Origin: Candidatus Pseudothioglobus aerophilus
GTDB lineage: Bacteria; Pseudomonadota; Gammaproteobacteria; PS1; Pseudothioglobaceae
Direction: 5' to 3'
DNA: 48,088 nucleotides
Assembly (NCBI GenBank): GCA_014384565.1
Contig: JACNFO010000056.1
Span: 6,373 to 54,460 of the forward strand
The notes under the pieces were generated by a model. It was not told the DNA's origin. It searched no databases and was given only the letters and a program-made list of their open reading frames with translations. Positions within the stretch are counted from its first letter, which is position 1. Each line of letters begins with the position of its first letter. Shown piece by piece: positions 18,525 through 26,586 of this stretch. The position numbers and the translations under genes were made by a program.

Positions 18525-19834
18525 GCGAATACAACCATTATCGAGGAGCAATTTACCACTGCACTGAAAGTAATGGGGTGCTAGAGCCAAACTATTTTGT
18601 TGATGGCCTTATGGTTGTTGACAATGATTCTGGAAGTATCATTGAGGTTGGAGACTTCAATCAAATTTCTTCAAAGTGGCCAAACGCTAAATCATCGACT
18701 CACTTTAAGGACAGTTTAATAATGCCTGGCTTCATTGACACCCATGTGCATTATCCTCAATATAAAGTTATAGCCTCCTATGGAGCAAGCCTTATAGACT
18801 GGCTTAATAAGTATACATTTATTGAAGAGCAAAAGTTTTCAGATGAAACTTATGCCGCGAAGGTTGCAGATTTGTTTCTTGATGAGCTTATTAAAAATGG
18901 TACTACAACAGCAATGACTTTTTGTACCTCACACAAGCAATCTGTAGATATTTTTTTCACGGCAGCAGAAAAACTGAAGCTTAGAATGGTGGCCGGTAAA
19001 GTTATGATGGATAGAAATGCGCCAGAGGCTCTTTGTGATAGTGTGGATGGTAGTTATTTTGATTCGAAAGAGTTGATTGAAAAATGGCACAATAGAGGGC
19101 GAATGAGTTACGCCGTTACGCCTAGATTTGCTCCTACATCTTCTTCTGAGCAATTAGTACAGGCTGCTAATTTATTAGAAGAATATTCAGATAATAATGG
19201 AAATAAAGGCGTTCTTCTGCAAACACATCTTAATGAAAATATTGATGAAATTGGCTGGGTAAAAGAGCTTTTTCCAGACTCAAAAAACTACTTTGATGTC
19301 TATGATAATTTCAATCTATCAGGACCTAATTCAGTTTTTGGTCATTGCATTTATAATACTGATGAAGAATATAAACGTATTGCTGATTCAGGCTCTAAGG
19401 TAGCACTATGTCCAAGATCCAATCTATTCCTTGGTAGCGGTCTATTTGAACTTGATAAATTAGAGGCTTTTGGAATAGGTACTGCACTTGCATCAGATGT
19501 TGGCGGCGGTGACAGCTTTTCAATGTTCCAGGTAATGAATGAAGCTTACAAAATATGTCGACTAAATAATTATAATTTAGATCCTGTTAAAGCTTTTTAT
19601 CTGACAACTCTAGCTGCAGCGAAAGTACTTGATATGGATAATCGTATTGGTAACTTTGAGCCTAATAAGGAGGCAGACTTTATTGTTATTGATTTAAAGG
19701 CAACAGAATTAATAAAAAATAAACTCGAAACCTCAGAGGATATTAACGATATATTATTTAATTTAATGACTTTAGGTGATGATAGACTAATTAAAGAGGT
19801 TTATATTTTAGGTCAAAATATTTACCAAAAATAA
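18521..19834 (+). CDS. guaD: Guanine deaminase
   Basis: This 437-residue amidohydrolase converts guanine to xanthine and ammonia. Zinc and catalytic residues are visible: H75 and H77 in GFIDTHVHYPQ (the guanine-deaminase form of the motif), H236 and E239 in QTHLNEN, H275 in FGHCIY, and D326 in ASDVGGGDSFSMF. Length fits the family. The start GTG at 18521 overlaps puuD by 4 bases. It feeds guanine released by the nucleoside operon, or taken up by the second importer, into xanthine dehydrogenase. Confidence 0.94.
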   Translation: MSEYNHYRGAIYHCTESNGVLEPNYFVDGLMVVDNDSGSIIEVGDFNQISSKWPNAKSSTHFKDSLIMPGFIDTHVHYPQYKVIASYGASLIDWLNKYTFIEEQKFSDETYAAKVADLFLDELIKNGTTTAMTFCTSHKQSVDIFFTAAEKLKLRMVAGKVMMDRNAPEALCDSVDGSYFDSKELIEKWHNRGRMSYAVTPRFAPTSSSEQLVQAANLLEEYSDNNGNKGVLLQTHLNENIDEIGWVKELFPDSKNYFDVYDNFNLSGPNSVFGHCIYNTDEEYKRIADSGSKVALCPRSNLFLGSGLFELDKLEAFGIGTALASDVGGGDSFSMFQVMNEAYKICRLNNYNLDPVKAFYLTTLAAAKVLDMDNRIGNFEPNKEADFIVIDLKATELIKNKLETSEDINDILFNLMTLGDDRLIKEVYILGQNIYQK

Positions 19835-19844
19835 GGAAGGCATA

Positions 19845-20189
19845 ATGGGACAACTTACAACACATATATTAGATACCTCTGCAGGAGTTCCTGCAAGTGG
19901 AGTGGCGATAAATTTATATCGAAGAGATGGTAAAAATTCAGTACATCTTAAATCAATAAAAACGAACTTAGATGGGCGTTGTGATAAACCTTTGTTGTCA
20001 GAAGAAGAATTTGATGAGGGTTGTTATGAGCTTGAATTCATAGTGGATGATTATTATGAAGCTAAAAATATTAAGTGCCCTTTTTTAAAAGATGTCATTA
20101 TTCGTTTCTATATTAGTGAAAAGAGTGAAAACTACCATGTACCTCTTTTAATTTCCCCTTATAGTTATTCAACCTATCGAGGAAGCTAA
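19845..20189 (+). CDS. uraH: 5-Hydroxyisourate hydrolase (transthyretin-related)
   Basis: This 114-residue transthyretin-like protein hydrolyses 5-hydroxyisourate to OHCU. Both signatures are present: LTTHILDTSAGVPA at the N-terminus and the diagnostic C-terminal tetrapeptide YRGS preceded by YHVPLLISPYSYST. No signal peptide is seen, so it is cytoplasmic. GGAAGG lies 5 bases before the ATG, and its last base overlaps the first base of xdhA. It completes the PuuD-UraH-UraD trio that turns urate into (S)-allantoin. Confidence 0.95.
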   Translation: MGQLTTHILDTSAGVPASGVAINLYRRDGKNSVHLKSIKTNLDGRCDKPLLSEEEFDEGCYELEFIVDDYYEAKNIKCPFLKDVIIRFYISEKSENYHVPLLISPYSYSTYRGS

Positions 20190-21667
20190 TGTATTTTTTG
20201 CTGAATCAAAACTCTACGCCAACAGATCTTGGCGCAATAAATCCAAATACTACTGTCCTAGAGTGGTTAAGAGATAATCAGCTTGTTGGAACTAAGGAGG
20301 GCTGCGCTTCTGGAGATTGCGGCGCTTGTACTGCAGTTATTGGTGAGATTGTTACTAATAATAAGTCTAGTAATATTGAGTATAAAAGTATAAATACATG
20401 CATGGCATTGGCTTATGGACTAGTTGGCAAACATTTAGTTACTGTTGAGGGGTTGGCTGAGGAGGGCAAGCTGCATCCTTCTCAAAAAGCAATGGTGCTA
20501 GAAAACGGTTCACAGTGTGGCTTTTGCACGCCTGGCTTTGTTATGTCGTTATTTGCCTTATATCAAAATAAAAACTCAGTAGATCTGCATCAAATAAACG
20601 AAGCTCTATCAGGTAACTTGTGCAGGTGCACTGGCTATAAACCAATAATTGCAGCTGCATTTTCAATGTTTAATGAGAAAAGTGACGAACCCTTAGACTA
20701 CTATAAAAAAAATCAGAAGAATATTACCAAGATTTTAGGAGAATTAAATAATCCTAAGCACATAAGTTTAAGTTATAAAAAGAGTAATAAAACAATTAAA
20801 TATGATGCTCCCTCAACGATAAATGAGCTCTCTAATGTTCTAATTAATAGCACTTCAGCAAATATTATTGCCGCAGGAACCGATCTCAGCCTAGAGATTA
20901 CTCAAGCAATGAAAGAGTTTTCACATATCGTTAGCGTTAATCAAGTTATTGAATTAAAGGAGATTAAAGATAACGCTAAAGAATTAGAGATTGGAGCTGC
21001 TGTAAGTTATGAGGATGCCGCATCTAGTCTTATAAGTAACTGGCCTGACTTAGGTCCTTTTTTGCAACGCTTTGCCTCTTTACCCATAAAGAATTGGGCG
21101 ACTATTGGAGGCAACATTGCTAATGCTTCACCTATAGGAGATATGCCCCCAGTCTTAATTGCTTTAGATGCAAAATTAAAGCTCAGAAAAGGCCCTGTTA
21201 GCAGAACTATTAATTTAGAAGATTTTTTTATTACCTATAAAAAAACTGTTATTCAGCAAGGTGAATTTATTGAAAGTATTATCATTCCAAAGCCTAATGA
21301 AAATCAGCGTCTTATTACTCATAAAATGTCTAAAAGATACGAGGATGATATTTCAGCTGTATGCATGGCAATAAATATTACGTCCACTAACAATAAGCCA
21401 GAATCATTTAAGATCGCCTTTGGAGGCATGTCAGGAATACCTCAAAGATCAAATAGACTTGAGAATTTTTTAGTAAAGAATTGGCAAGAAGATAATATAG
21501 CTGCATTATCTTATAAGGTTTTGAAAGAAGAATTTTCTCCATTTACTGATGTCAGAGCAACTTCAGAATACCGATTACAAGTATCAGCAAACTTAATTAA
21601 AAAAACTATATTGATGTATCAAGATCAGCCAGTTGAAAATCTTGCAGAATATTCACAATCAAGTTAA
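20189..21667 (+). CDS. xdhA: Xanthine dehydrogenase small subunit (2Fe-2S and FAD)
   Basis: This 492-residue subunit carries two [2Fe-2S] clusters and FAD. Cluster ligands are C39, C44, C47 and C71 in the plant-ferredoxin-like domain, and C110, C113, C145 and C147 (GSQCGFC and NLCRC) in the helical domain. The FAD domain includes IIAAGTDLSLE and the ATIGGNIANASPIGD loop. It passes electrons from the molybdenum subunit encoded next to NAD. The two-subunit XdhAB form with XdhC is typical of bacteria. Hypoxanthine and xanthine are the expected substrates given the surrounding genes. Confidence 0.94.
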   Translation: MYFLLNQNSTPTDLGAINPNTTVLEWLRDNQLVGTKEGCASGDCGACTAVIGEIVTNNKSSNIEYKSINTCMALAYGLVGKHLVTVEGLAEEGKLHPSQKAMVLENGSQCGFCTPGFVMSLFALYQNKNSVDLHQINEALSGNLCRCTGYKPIIAAAFSMFNEKSDEPLDYYKKNQKNITKILGELNNPKHISLSYKKSNKTIKYDAPSTINELSNVLINSTSANIIAAGTDLSLEITQAMKEFSHIVSVNQVIELKEIKDNAKELEIGAAVSYEDAASSLISNWPDLGPFLQRFASLPIKNWATIGGNIANASPIGDMPPVLIALDAKLKLRKGPVSRTINLEDFFITYKKTVIQQGEFIESIIIPKPNENQRLITHKMSKRYEDDISAVCMAINITSTNNKPESFKIAFGGMSGIPQRSNRLENFLVKNWQEDNIAALSYKVLKEEFSPFTDVRATSEYRLQVSANLIKKTILMYQDQPVENLAEYSQSS

Positions 21668-21670
21668 TTC

Positions 21671-21676
21671 AAGGAG
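21671..21676 (+). promoter_or_regulatory. Ribosome binding site pointing to an AUU start for xdhB
   Basis: A perfect AAGGAG is followed after 9 bases by ATT at 21686. An in-frame TAA at 21677-21679 prevents any start further upstream. ATT is the only near-cognate codon at proper distance. The first in-frame ATG is 26 codons further on. Confidence 0.7.
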
Positions 21677-21685
21677 TAAGCAAAA

Positions 21686-24001
21686 ATTAATAAAAATATA
21701 AAAAATTCTGCTCAACTTAAGGGTTCAATAATTGGCGACTCAATTGCTCACGATAGTGCTCATATGCATGTCCAGGGAAGTGCAACTTATATTGATGATA
21801 TGCCGGTCCCAAAAGGCACTCTTCATGTTGCATTTGCGTTAAGTAATGTTGCGCGTGGAAAAATAAATAAGATTGATATTACAGATGCTCTAAAAGCTGA
21901 CGGCGTTCATAGTATTCTCCTGGCAAAAGATATAGAAAATCTATATATAGGAGCGATTAAACATGACGAGCCTATTTTGGCTGATAAAGAGGTTTTATTC
22001 TTTGGCCAAGCAATTGCTGCTGTCTTAGCAGATAGTCATGAGAATGCAAGAACAGCTGCGCTCTTAATCACCTCAAATGTAACGGAGCTAGAGGCTGTAG
22101 TTACTATTGATCAGGCAATGGCTAAAAAAAGCTTTCTTGATGAACCACTAGTAGTCTCTATAGGAGATTCAAATAAAGCTATAGATTCATCAAAAAATAA
22201 GCTAAATGGAAGACTATCTATTGGCGGTCAAGAGCATTATTATCTTGAGGGACAGGTTGCCCTGGCAATTCCAACAGAGGACAACGAGATGGTAGTTCAT
22301 TCTTCGACTCAAAACCCTACAGAAGTCCAACATCTAGTTGCGCATGTTTTAGATGTTCCTCAAAATGCAATCGAAGTAATTACTCGAAGAATGGGCGGTG
22401 GCTTTGGTGGTAAAGAGACAGATTCATCTCAACTTGCGTGTGTTTGCGCTATATTTGCAAAGCAAATTAAACTTCCTATAAAGGCTCGGCTCTCTAGAAA
22501 AGATGATATGTTGCTCACTGGAAAGAGGCATGATTTCAAGGCAGATTATAAAGTTGGCTATAGTGATGACGGGAAAATTTTGGGGATTGAGATAGATCTT
22601 GCAGCAAGATGTGGCTACTCACTTGATTTATCTAAAGCAATAGTTTCTAGAGCTTTATTCCATGCTGATAATACATACTTCTTGCCAAATGCTACTTTTA
22701 GGGGTTTTTTATGCAAAACAAATACCGCTTCAAACACAGCGTTTAGAGGCTTTGGTGGACCTCAAGGGATGCTTGCTATAGAAAATATTATTGAAGAAAT
22801 AGCTATGAATATTGGTGTTGATGCTCTTGAAATTAGAAAATTAAATTATTATCAAAAGGATACAAATAACGTGACGCCTTACGATCAAGTTGTCGAAGAT
22901 AATATTATTAATGAGCTCTCTAGTGAACTTATAGAAGACAGTAATTATTTAGTTAGAAGAGAAAGTATTGAAAAGTTTAATAAAACAAGTAAATATCTTA
23001 AAAAAGGATTGGCATTTTCCCCTGTGAAATTTGGTATTTCTTTTACCACTCAATTATTAAATCAAGCTGGCGCATTGGTAAATGTATATAAAGATGGAAG
23101 TATATATATTAATCATGGAGGGACTGAAATGGGCCAAGGCCTATTTATTAAAGTTGCGCAGGTTGTTGCTAATGAATTCGGTGTTAATCTAGAGCGAGTA
23201 AAGGTCTCAGCTACTTCTACTGCTAAAGTTCCAAATACATCACCAACTGCTGCATCCTCTGGTTCAGATTTAAATGGTATGGCTGCTAGAGAGGCGTGCT
23301 TAAGAATTAAGAGAAATTTAACTACTTTTGCGAAAGATTTCTATGGCGAAGGTAATAGTGATATTGAGTTTAAAGACTCTTTTGTTATTATTGGTAAGAA
23401 AAAGATAGCGTTTGATGAATTTGTGTCAACAGCATATTTAAATCGAGTAGAACTTTTTAGTAATGGCTTTTATAAAACACCAAAAATTTTCTTTGATGCG
23501 GTTAAACAAAAAGGTCATCCTTTTTACTATTATTCATATGGTGCCTGCGTTAGTGAAGTTATAGTTGATTGTTTGACTGGTGAGTATAAGTTGTTAGCAG
23601 TTGATATTTTGCATGATGTTGGCGCATCACTTAACCCAGCAATTGATATGGGGCAAATAGTTGGAGGATATATTCAGGGTATGGGCTGGCTCTGCTCTGA
23701 GGAGCTCAAATGGAATGATTCTGGGGCACTTTTAACGATGGGCGCATCGACCTATAAAATCCCTGCAATCGGCGATACGCCTGAGCATTTTGAGGTCAAA
23801 ATTAAGCCTAATATTTCTAATCATGAAAATACAATTCATAAATCTAAAGCAGTTGGAGAGCCTCCTTTGATGCTTGCAATATCAGCTTGGCTGGCGATAA
23901 AAAATGCTATTTATAATGCAGATAATGAAATGCAAACTGGCCTAAATGCTCCTGCAACTTTTGAGCAAGTATTCTTTAATCTCAATAAGAGTCTTAAGTA
24001 A
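21686..24001 (+). CDS. xdhB: Xanthine dehydrogenase large (molybdenum) subunit, probable AUU start
   Basis: This molybdopterin subunit of xanthine dehydrogenase is 771 residues if begun at ATT 21686. Motifs: GGGFGGKETDSSQ at about 237-249, FRGFGGPQGM, GTEMGQGL, and KAVGEPP with the catalytic Glu near 725. Beginning instead at ATG 21764 would lose SIIGDSIAHDSAHMHVQG, the conserved XdhB opening (compare the usual HDSAxxHVxG), and that ATG has no ribosome site. The AUU start is inferred; a sequence error changing ATG to ATT is the main alternative. It hydroxylates hypoxanthine and xanthine to urate in the cytoplasm and needs XdhC, encoded 6 bp after its stop. Confidence 0.9.
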   Translation: MNKNIKNSAQLKGSIIGDSIAHDSAHMHVQGSATYIDDMPVPKGTLHVAFALSNVARGKINKIDITDALKADGVHSILLAKDIENLYIGAIKHDEPILADKEVLFFGQAIAAVLADSHENARTAALLITSNVTELEAVVTIDQAMAKKSFLDEPLVVSIGDSNKAIDSSKNKLNGRLSIGGQEHYYLEGQVALAIPTEDNEMVVHSSTQNPTEVQHLVAHVLDVPQNAIEVITRRMGGGFGGKETDSSQLACVCAIFAKQIKLPIKARLSRKDDMLLTGKRHDFKADYKVGYSDDGKILGIEIDLAARCGYSLDLSKAIVSRALFHADNTYFLPNATFRGFLCKTNTASNTAFRGFGGPQGMLAIENIIEEIAMNIGVDALEIRKLNYYQKDTNNVTPYDQVVEDNIINELSSELIEDSNYLVRRESIEKFNKTSKYLKKGLAFSPVKFGISFTTQLLNQAGALVNVYKDGSIYINHGGTEMGQGLFIKVAQVVANEFGVNLERVKVSATSTAKVPNTSPTAASSGSDLNGMAAREACLRIKRNLTTFAKDFYGEGNSDIEFKDSFVIIGKKKIAFDEFVSTAYLNRVELFSNGFYKTPKIFFDAVKQKGHPFYYYSYGACVSEVIVDCLTGEYKLLAVDILHDVGASLNPAIDMGQIVGGYIQGMGWLCSEELKWNDSGALLTMGASTYKIPAIGDTPEHFEVKIKPNISNHENTIHKSKAVGEPPLMLAISAWLAIKNAIYNADNEMQTGLNAPATFEQVFFNLNKSLK

Positions 24002-24007
24002 TAGGCT

Positions 24008-25090
24008 ATGAATAGTTGGTTGAAGCCAGTGAAGACGGCAAGTGCTTTAAATAATGGCTTTGTATTGTTAACAATTATTTCAACTAAGGGCTCAACCCCT
24101 TGCTCTAATGGAGATAAGATTGTCTTCTCTGGAGCTGAGTCAGTTTTTGGCAGTATCGGTGGCGGTAATTTAGAATTTAAAGCCTTATCTTTTGCTGAAG
24201 AATTATTAAGTCTTAATTCTAATGGTACTTATTTAAAAAAATATCCTCTTGGCGCCTCACTTGGGCAGTGTTGTGGAGGCTATGTGAATGTCATGTTTGA
24301 AAGTTTTATTCAGTCTGACGCAACAAATTCATGGATCAAAACAGTATCAAACTTACTTCAAGATAATGAAGATTTTATAGTTGCTACAATTGTAGATAGT
24401 AACTCTGAAATTGAATTTAGCAGTAAAAAATTTGTCTACCTAGATGGTAATTTATCTCCAAATATTGATGACAAAAAAATCTCTAGCTTGATTACAAAAA
24501 GCGCTAAAGATCTTTTGTTACTTTCTGATAGTCCTACTATAGTGCAATTTGAAAATCAGTCAGGCGCTTTAACTGAAGTTTGCTTTGAAAAAGTCTTGAC
24601 TAGCGAAGTTCAGCCAGTAGTCATTTTTGGAGCTGGACATATTTCAAGAGCTCTGATGCCAATTTTAATTAACCTACCTATTAAGATTTATTGGGTTGAT
24701 GATAGAGCAGAACAATTTGATAAATATCAAGGAGATACATCTCAAATAGATATTATTTGTGATGACTTTGTTCAGAGCATTCCTGACTTGCCAGACAGTA
24801 GCTATTGTCTCGTAATTACATACAGCCATCAAATTGACTTCGAGATTTGTGAAAAAATGATTACTCAAAATAACTTCAGTTATTTGGGTATGATTGGTTC
24901 AGAAATTAAGGGGAAAAAATTTAGAGATCGTTTTCATCAAAAGAATTTTTCTGAGGAAGTGATTAATAAATTTATCTGTCCAATAGGAGACAAGCAAAAA
25001 TTCTTAAAATCACCTGCTGCAATTGCCGTAACTATTGCAATGGATTTAATTAACTTTATAGAACATAAAAGACAACCTGAATCTGTATGA
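24008..25090 (+). CDS. xdhC: Xanthine dehydrogenase accessory protein XdhC
   Basis: This 360-residue XdhC/CoxI family protein binds molybdenum cofactor, helps insert its terminal sulfur and delivers it to XdhB. The N-terminal domain has STKGSTPCSNGDKIVF, GSIGGGNLE and LGQCCGGYVNV, with the cysteines typical of XdhC. The C-terminal Rossmann domain begins with PVVIFGAGHISRAL near 204 and includes YLGMIGSEIKGKKFRDR. It ends the enzyme part of the purine operon and overlaps the ATPase gene of the second importer by 4 bases, so catabolic and transport genes are directly coupled. Confidence 0.92.
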   Translation: MNSWLKPVKTASALNNGFVLLTIISTKGSTPCSNGDKIVFSGAESVFGSIGGGNLEFKALSFAEELLSLNSNGTYLKKYPLGASLGQCCGGYVNVMFESFIQSDATNSWIKTVSNLLQDNEDFIVATIVDSNSEIEFSSKKFVYLDGNLSPNIDDKKISSLITKSAKDLLLLSDSPTIVQFENQSGALTEVCFEKVLTSEVQPVVIFGAGHISRALMPILINLPIKIYWVDDRAEQFDKYQGDTSQIDIICDDFVQSIPDLPDSSYCLVITYSHQIDFEICEKMITQNNFSYLGMIGSEIKGKKFRDRFHQKNFSEEVINKFICPIGDKQKFLKSPAAIAVTIAMDLINFIEHKRQPESV

Positions 25091-26586
25091 AATATCAATT
25101 AGAAGTATCCAATATTACTAAGTCTTATGGAGATTTAAAGGCTAACGATAATGTTTCGCTTAGAATTAAGGATTCAAGTATTCACGCCTTGCTTGGTGAA
25201 AATGGAGCTGGTAAGTCAACTCTAGTGAAAATTATATATGGCTCGTTATCACCAGATAGCGGTGAAATGAAGTGGGCTAATAATGAATATAGTCCTAAAA
25301 GCCCTTTTCAAGCTAGAGAAAATGGAATAGCAATGGTCTTTCAACACTTTTCATTATTTGAATCGTTAACTGTTGAAGAAAATATAATTCTCGGACTTGA
25401 TAGTGTCGGTCTAAATGACAATTTTTCTGAGCAAATAATTAAGTATTCAAAGCAATATGGCTTAGATATTAACCCACAACAAGTTGTTGGTGATCTCTCG
25501 GTTGGTGCGCGTCAACGTGTTGAAATTATTCGCTGCTTAATGCAAAACCCAAAGTTACTTATTATGGATGAACCGACTTCAGTCTTGACCCCTCAAGAAG
25601 TAGCCGATTTATTTGTAACTCTTAAAAAGCTTGCGGCAGATGGATGCGCTATCTTATATATTTCTCATAAGCTTGAAGAGGTCCGTGAAATATGCAGTGA
25701 AGCAACAATTTTGAGAGGTGGAAAATTAGTCCAAAGCTGTATACCTCAGGAGCATAGCCAAAAAGAACTTGCAGAAATGATGATTGGAAAAAAACTAACC
25801 GAGCTTGCCAGAGCTAATATAGCTGTTGGCGAGAGTATTTTTTCAATCGATAATTTAAGTCGAAAGAGTGATGATATATATGGAGTTAATCTTAATAATA
25901 TCGCTTTAAAAATTAATAAGGGAAGTATTGTTGGTATAGCAGGTGTTGCTGGAAATGGCCAAGATGAGTTGATGGAGCTGCTTATTGGCGAAATTTCGTC
26001 ACCCAAAACAACTTTGAATTTTAATGGCCAAGATATTGGCACTCTAAACTCGCACGAAAGAAGACAGCTTTCTATGTTCTTTGTTCCTGAAGAAAGGCTT
26101 GGCCACGGCGCAGTTCCAGATATGTCGTTAGATGAAAATATGTTACTAAGCAGGCCAGATTCAACTGAAATGACGAGCAATGATGTCATTGACTGGAAAA
26201 AAGTTGCAACGCATTCAAAAAATGTTATCGATACCTTTGATGTGCAAACGCCTTCAAGCAGAATGTTAGCCAAATCACTTTCTGGAGGAAACCTACAAAA
26301 GTTTATGGTTGGAAGAGAGCTTATTCAAAATCCAGAATTATTAATTGTTGCTCAGCCTACCTGGGGGGTTGATGCGGGCTCTGCTAACAATATTCATCAG
26401 GCTTTGATTGAATTGGCTGATAAAGGCTCAGCTATATTGATTATTTCCCAAGACTTGGATGAAATATTAAGTTTATGTGACAAAATCCATGTTCTATCTG
26501 AAGGAAAGCTTTCTGATGCTGTGGACATGAAGAGTAAAGGGTTAGAGAAGATTTCTCAGCTCATGGTTGGAGGAAAAACCCAATGA
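25087..26586 (+). CDS. Second BMP-type ABC importer: two-domain ATPase
   Basis: This 499-residue tandem ABC ATPase has a complete domain 1: GENGAGKST, LSVGARQRV and LIMDEPTSVLTP. Domain 2 has GVAGNGQDEL, LSGGNLQK and LIVAQPTWGVD, with the usual degenerate catalytic Gln. It is a paralogue of the 11231-12787 ATPase with the same architecture. Because it overlaps xdhC by 4 bases, and because adenine deaminase follows the cluster, I infer purine bases or close derivatives (guanine, adenine, xanthine, urate) as cargo. Import of a purine nucleoside remains possible. Confidence 0.88.
   Translation: MKYQLEVSNITKSYGDLKANDNVSLRIKDSSIHALLGENGAGKSTLVKIIYGSLSPDSGEMKWANNEYSPKSPFQARENGIAMVFQHFSLFESLTVEENIILGLDSVGLNDNFSEQIIKYSKQYGLDINPQQVVGDLSVGARQRVEIIRCLMQNPKLLIMDEPTSVLTPQEVADLFVTLKKLAADGCAILYISHKLEEVREICSEATILRGGKLVQSCIPQEHSQKELAEMMIGKKLTELARANIAVGESIFSIDNLSRKSDDIYGVNLNNIALKINKGSIVGIAGVAGNGQDELMELLIGEISSPKTTLNFNGQDIGTLNSHERRQLSMFFVPEERLGHGAVPDMSLDENMLLSRPDSTEMTSNDVIDWKKVATHSKNVIDTFDVQTPSSRMLAKSLSGGNLQKFMVGRELIQNPELLIVAQPTWGVDAGSANNIHQALIELADKGSAILIISQDLDEILSLCDKIHVLSEGKLSDAVDMKSKGLEKISQLMVGGKTQ

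Follow-up and report, generated by a model that had tools for sequence, protein, structure and literature searches.

Which codon starts xdhB, the gene for the molybdopterin-binding large subunit of xanthine dehydrogenase, in Candidatus Pseudothioglobus aerophilus? The gene lies close behind xdhA, which encodes the FeS/FAD small subunit, on a stretch of 48,088 nucleotides that was analysed as a whole and is here called the window (assembly GCA_014384565.1, contig JACNFO010000056.1, positions 6,373 to 54,460 of the forward strand). The original prediction was that xdhB uses an AUU start codon, with an AAGGAG followed by an ATT in frame with xdhB and a TAA just upstream. To our knowledge, few bacterial genes start with AUU, and those that have been explained involve initiation factor 3 (IF3) or a low product level.

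The xdhA-xdhB junction and the N-terminus of XdhB

The predicted elements are all present at the junction, with a spacing of 9 nt between the Shine-Dalgarno sequence and the ATT:

20189..21667, + strand: xdhA, FeS/FAD small subunit; its stop codon is the TAA at 21665-21667, and it is in the same frame as xdhB
21671..21676, + strand: Shine-Dalgarno sequence AAGGAG; 9 nt spacer to ATT, with the purine run kept in relatives
21677..21679, + strand: TAA in the xdhB frame, the upstream bound on possible xdhB starts
21686..21688, + strand: ATT (AUU), the proposed start of xdhB; 17 of the 18 species of the genus with xdhB have ATT or ATC here
21686..24001, + strand: xdhB, molybdopterin-binding large subunit, 771 amino acids counted from the ATT
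21731..21763, + strand: codons of the conserved N-terminus (IIGDSIAHDSAH), which would be absent from the product if the ATG at 21764 were the start; based on the alignment with 1jro_B from residue 3
21764..21766, + strand: first in-frame ATG of xdhB, the start obtained if starts are limited to ATG, GTG and TTG; not accepted here as the real one

Between the TAA at 21677 and the ATG at 21764, the window sequence has no ATG, GTG or TTG in the xdhB frame. The ATT at 21686 lies 26 codons ahead of this ATG and 18 nt behind the xdhA stop codon. It is the sole near-cognate codon in the window that combines a workable distance from the Shine-Dalgarno sequence with the conserved N-terminus, which supports AUU as the start of xdhB. 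The predicted RNA fold across the start (21630-21730) is not unusual (z -1.3), and no Rfam family was found within 19800-25200.

When read from the ATT, the product is an ordinary XdhB with the MoCoBD_1, MoCoBD_2 and Ald_Xan_dh_C domains. It aligns over nearly its full length with XdhB of R. capsulatus (1jro_B; E 1.2e-209), and residue 3 of 1jro_B pairs with residue 16 of the ATT-read protein (VGKPLPHDSARAHV aligned with IGDSIAHDSAHMHV). This alignment places the motif IGDSIAHDSA before the ATG at 21764, so that the 26 extra residues do include the conserved N-terminus of XdhB, as had been claimed for them. The motif also aligns with many other solved enzymes and is kept at the protein level throughout the genus.

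As the xdhB frame offers no canonical start before the ATG at 21764, one could argue that xdhB begins there and that the conservation upstream is a leftover or a 5' leader. A start at this ATG would nevertheless drop a motif that is aligned with R. capsulatus XdhB almost from its first residue and is conserved as protein in the genus, and the window has no Shine-Dalgarno sequence ahead of this codon. We consider such a start very unlikely and, in agreement with the original prediction, reject the ATG at 21764, because its use would delete the conserved N-terminus of XdhB. Gene finders restricted to ATG, GTG and TTG will truncate XdhB in these marine SUP05/Thioglobus genomes and lose the conserved N-terminal motif.

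Conservation of the start codon in the genus

Our sample of the genus consisted of 29 genomes; xdhB is present in 18 of them, and the junction was inspected in each. At the aligned start position, ATT is found in 11 species and ATC in 6, i.e. ATY in 17 of the 18; the exception is a basal species (G026) with a GTG start. The sister genus has xdhB in two genomes (L027, L028), both with an ATG start. In the relatives, the ATY is preceded by a purine run of the GGAG, GAGG or GGGG type at a workable Shine-Dalgarno distance. Relatives were compared for an ATG at the start position: the close ones (L002-L005), whose XdhB is 97 to 100 percent identical, all have ATT, and the more distant members of the genus have ATT or ATC.

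Because the assembly that contains the window is a draft in 62 contigs, the ATT might be taken for a sequencing or assembly error in place of ATG. Against this, L002-L005 were deposited as separate assemblies and share the ATT despite differences at other bases close by, and two of the 17 ATY genomes are single-contig. The probability of such an error is negligible, and we regard it as excluded because 17 of 18 related species keep ATT or ATC.

Five of the 17 relatives have a canonical codon in frame nearby (TTG in L018, ATG in L020, and GTG in L023, L024 and L025), in each case with no evident Shine-Dalgarno sequence. The argument that identifies the start by exclusion holds strictly only for the window and some 11 further genomes; elsewhere it is carried by the shared position and the Shine-Dalgarno sequence.

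The distance from the xdhA stop codon to the ATY in relatives is 11-21 nt where a stop was found by script; by eye, it is 3 nt in L022 and 6 nt in L025. In one genome (L021; G001:C6:10295-12595) the xdhA stop codon has been lost and the near relative L022 retains it. Since xdhA and xdhB form one open frame of 1279 codons in L021, this genome needs no separate xdhB start.

This natural in-frame fusion, together with the shared frame of xdhA and xdhB in the window, raises the question of whether readthrough of stop codons or frameshifting yields XdhB as an XdhA fusion. However, the window has two TAA codons in frame, and L014 has three stop codons. The frame of xdhA relative to xdhB varies among relatives, and it is the Shine-Dalgarno sequence and the ATY that are kept instead. 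With these stop codons and the varying relative frame, there is no conserved recoding signal, and production of XdhB as a fusion is most improbable.

Persistence of ATT and ATC

In a protein tree of XdhB (midpoint-rooted, with a long outgroup row), all 17 ATY genes form one clade (support 98/98), which excludes the GTG gene and the one sister-genus gene in the tree. Members with ATT and with ATC are interspersed within this clade, and reversion to ATG is absent. The third base has therefore switched between T and C more than once but never to G or A.

To judge how often a T would stay T or C by drift, we used as a control 78 comparable fourfold columns of xdhB that have T in the window, in the same 17 genomes. 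Only 3 of the 78 remain T or C in all 17, while 43 contain G and 71 contain A. Among the 29 columns with isoleucine in all 17 genomes, ATA occurs in 24. The empirical chance of persistence as T or C is about 4 percent, a modest test from one comparison in one gene. Since so few fourfold sites stay T or C, it is unlikely that ATY persisted by drift alone, and the control is suggestive, not conclusive, on this point.

A related view accepts the AUY start as real and disputes only its regulatory meaning: the codon would have been kept through drift or tolerance. The genome is AT-rich, a change of T to C is a transition and comes easily, and the drift control amounts to 3 of 78 columns set against one site. 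Yet ATG, presumably a better start, is one base away and has been regained in none of the 17 lineages, and the ATT of pepN (see below) persists likewise in the same genus. We regard persistence with no regulatory meaning as possible, but not probable.

Proposed initiation of xdhB and comparison with known systems

We argue that xdhB is very probably initiated at AUU or AUC, inefficiently, and that this initiation is probably coupled to translation of xdhA and sensitive to IF3, as in infC. Directly observed are the lack of a canonical start in the window, the conservation of AUY and its position just behind the xdhA stop codon. From these features of the sequence, we infer the use of AUU or AUC as the start codon, its low efficiency, the coupling to xdhA and the sensitivity to IF3.

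In the proposed mechanism, initiator tRNA would decode AUU, or AUC in some relatives, as the start of xdhB, and a Shine-Dalgarno sequence lying between the xdhA stop codon and the xdhB start, or across them, would direct initiation there. The weak codon would hold xdhB initiation low and make it dependent on the closeness of the xdhA stop codon and on IF3. Ribosomes terminating on xdhA could re-initiate at xdhB over the short distance between stop and start, a spacing of the kind expected for re-initiation. IF3 discrimination would act on the AUU start of xdhB as it does on that of infC, a link that the literature makes plausible. Weak initiation of xdhB may be under selection. Most likely, the start of xdhB is a conserved AUU that appears to have been kept weak through selection or long tolerance.

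AUU starts have been described for infC and pcnB of E. coli (PMC13009471, PMC9410913), and the AUU of pcnB is reported to limit expression (Binns and Masters 2002, as cited in PMC13009471 and PMC9410913). In S. aureus, cvfC1 (AUU) and ccpN (AUA) have conserved near-cognate starts with strong Shine-Dalgarno sequences, which were identified by Ribo-Ret and examined in reporter assays (PMC13009471); reporter output from these starts was about a tenth of that from AUG (PMC13009471, PMC9410913).

The start of xdhB resembles that of infC in E. coli and other bacteria in having an AUU behind a Shine-Dalgarno sequence, conserved across relatives. However, the product of infC is IF3 itself, which makes that gene autoregulated, whereas the enzyme subunit encoded by xdhB is not known to take part in initiation. 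With pcnB of E. coli, xdhB shares an AUU on a gene unrelated to initiation; as far as we know, pcnB does not follow closely on a stop codon as the downstream gene of a subunit pair. The likeness to cvfC1 and ccpN lies in a conserved weak start with a Shine-Dalgarno sequence. Those starts were shown experimentally, in another phylum and in other genes, whereas that of xdhB is proposed from sequence and consists of AUU or AUC a short distance after the stop codon of the preceding gene.

Other near-cognate starts in the genus

As a positive control, infC was located in 23 genomes and has ATT at the same position in every one of them. For a wider survey, we read the complete genome of the relative G003 and 800 kb of G002. 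Pairwise matches from this survey were nearly all conserved 5' leaders running up to a canonical start. G003 was scanned for a near-cognate codon with a Shine-Dalgarno sequence and coding-like codons ahead of the first canonical start. The scan returned 8 of 1418 open frames and recovered infC and xdhB unprompted; these 8 give no complete inventory and no frequency, because the thresholds were hand-set once and starts near a canonical codon are missed. An MORN protein (CTG) and a Rieske protein from the scan were judged doubtful. A Lrp/AsnC regulator in G003 (L052:10384-10824), also from the scan, has an apparent AUU start and no canonical one. It was left uncounted as a private change or an error, since the orthologs listed have an ATG a few codons upstream.

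The gene for aminopeptidase N, pepN, was likewise among the frames returned by the scan, and its start held up in relatives: of 20 loci read, that of the window's own genome included, 17 have ATT at the corresponding position; in the other three, the N-terminus was not located by the motif used. In the window's genome (L210; G000:C33:53639-56155, - strand) and its relatives (L208-L227), this conserved ATT stands behind AGGAG, with no canonical start. Some loci have an ATG four codons past the ATT, too distant to be the usual partner of the Shine-Dalgarno sequence. In G019, pepN matches in two pieces (L227 and L229; G019:C4:651534-654051) with internal stop codons, and is either broken or affected by a sequencing error.

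We found no paper on an AUU or AUC start of xdhB or pepN in the open-access literature. Near-cognate starts in these two genes are likely, but not certain, to be new, because the search covered open-access and not subscription journals. A metabolic enzyme subunit with a genus-wide AUU or AUC start, together with pepN, provides a natural case in which to test the function of near-cognate starts.

A more speculative idea, which we hold to be rather unlikely, is that infC, pepN, xdhB and perhaps a GBBH-like oxygenase form a group of AUU/AUC genes tuned by IF3, which would link the use of peptides and purines to the state of translation; re-initiation would in addition lock xdhB to the translation of xdhA. 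The oxygenase gene (GBBH-like/TauD; L076:2488-3615, G003:C1:482488-483615) has, as read in G003, an ATC behind GGAG and no canonical start before codon 30.
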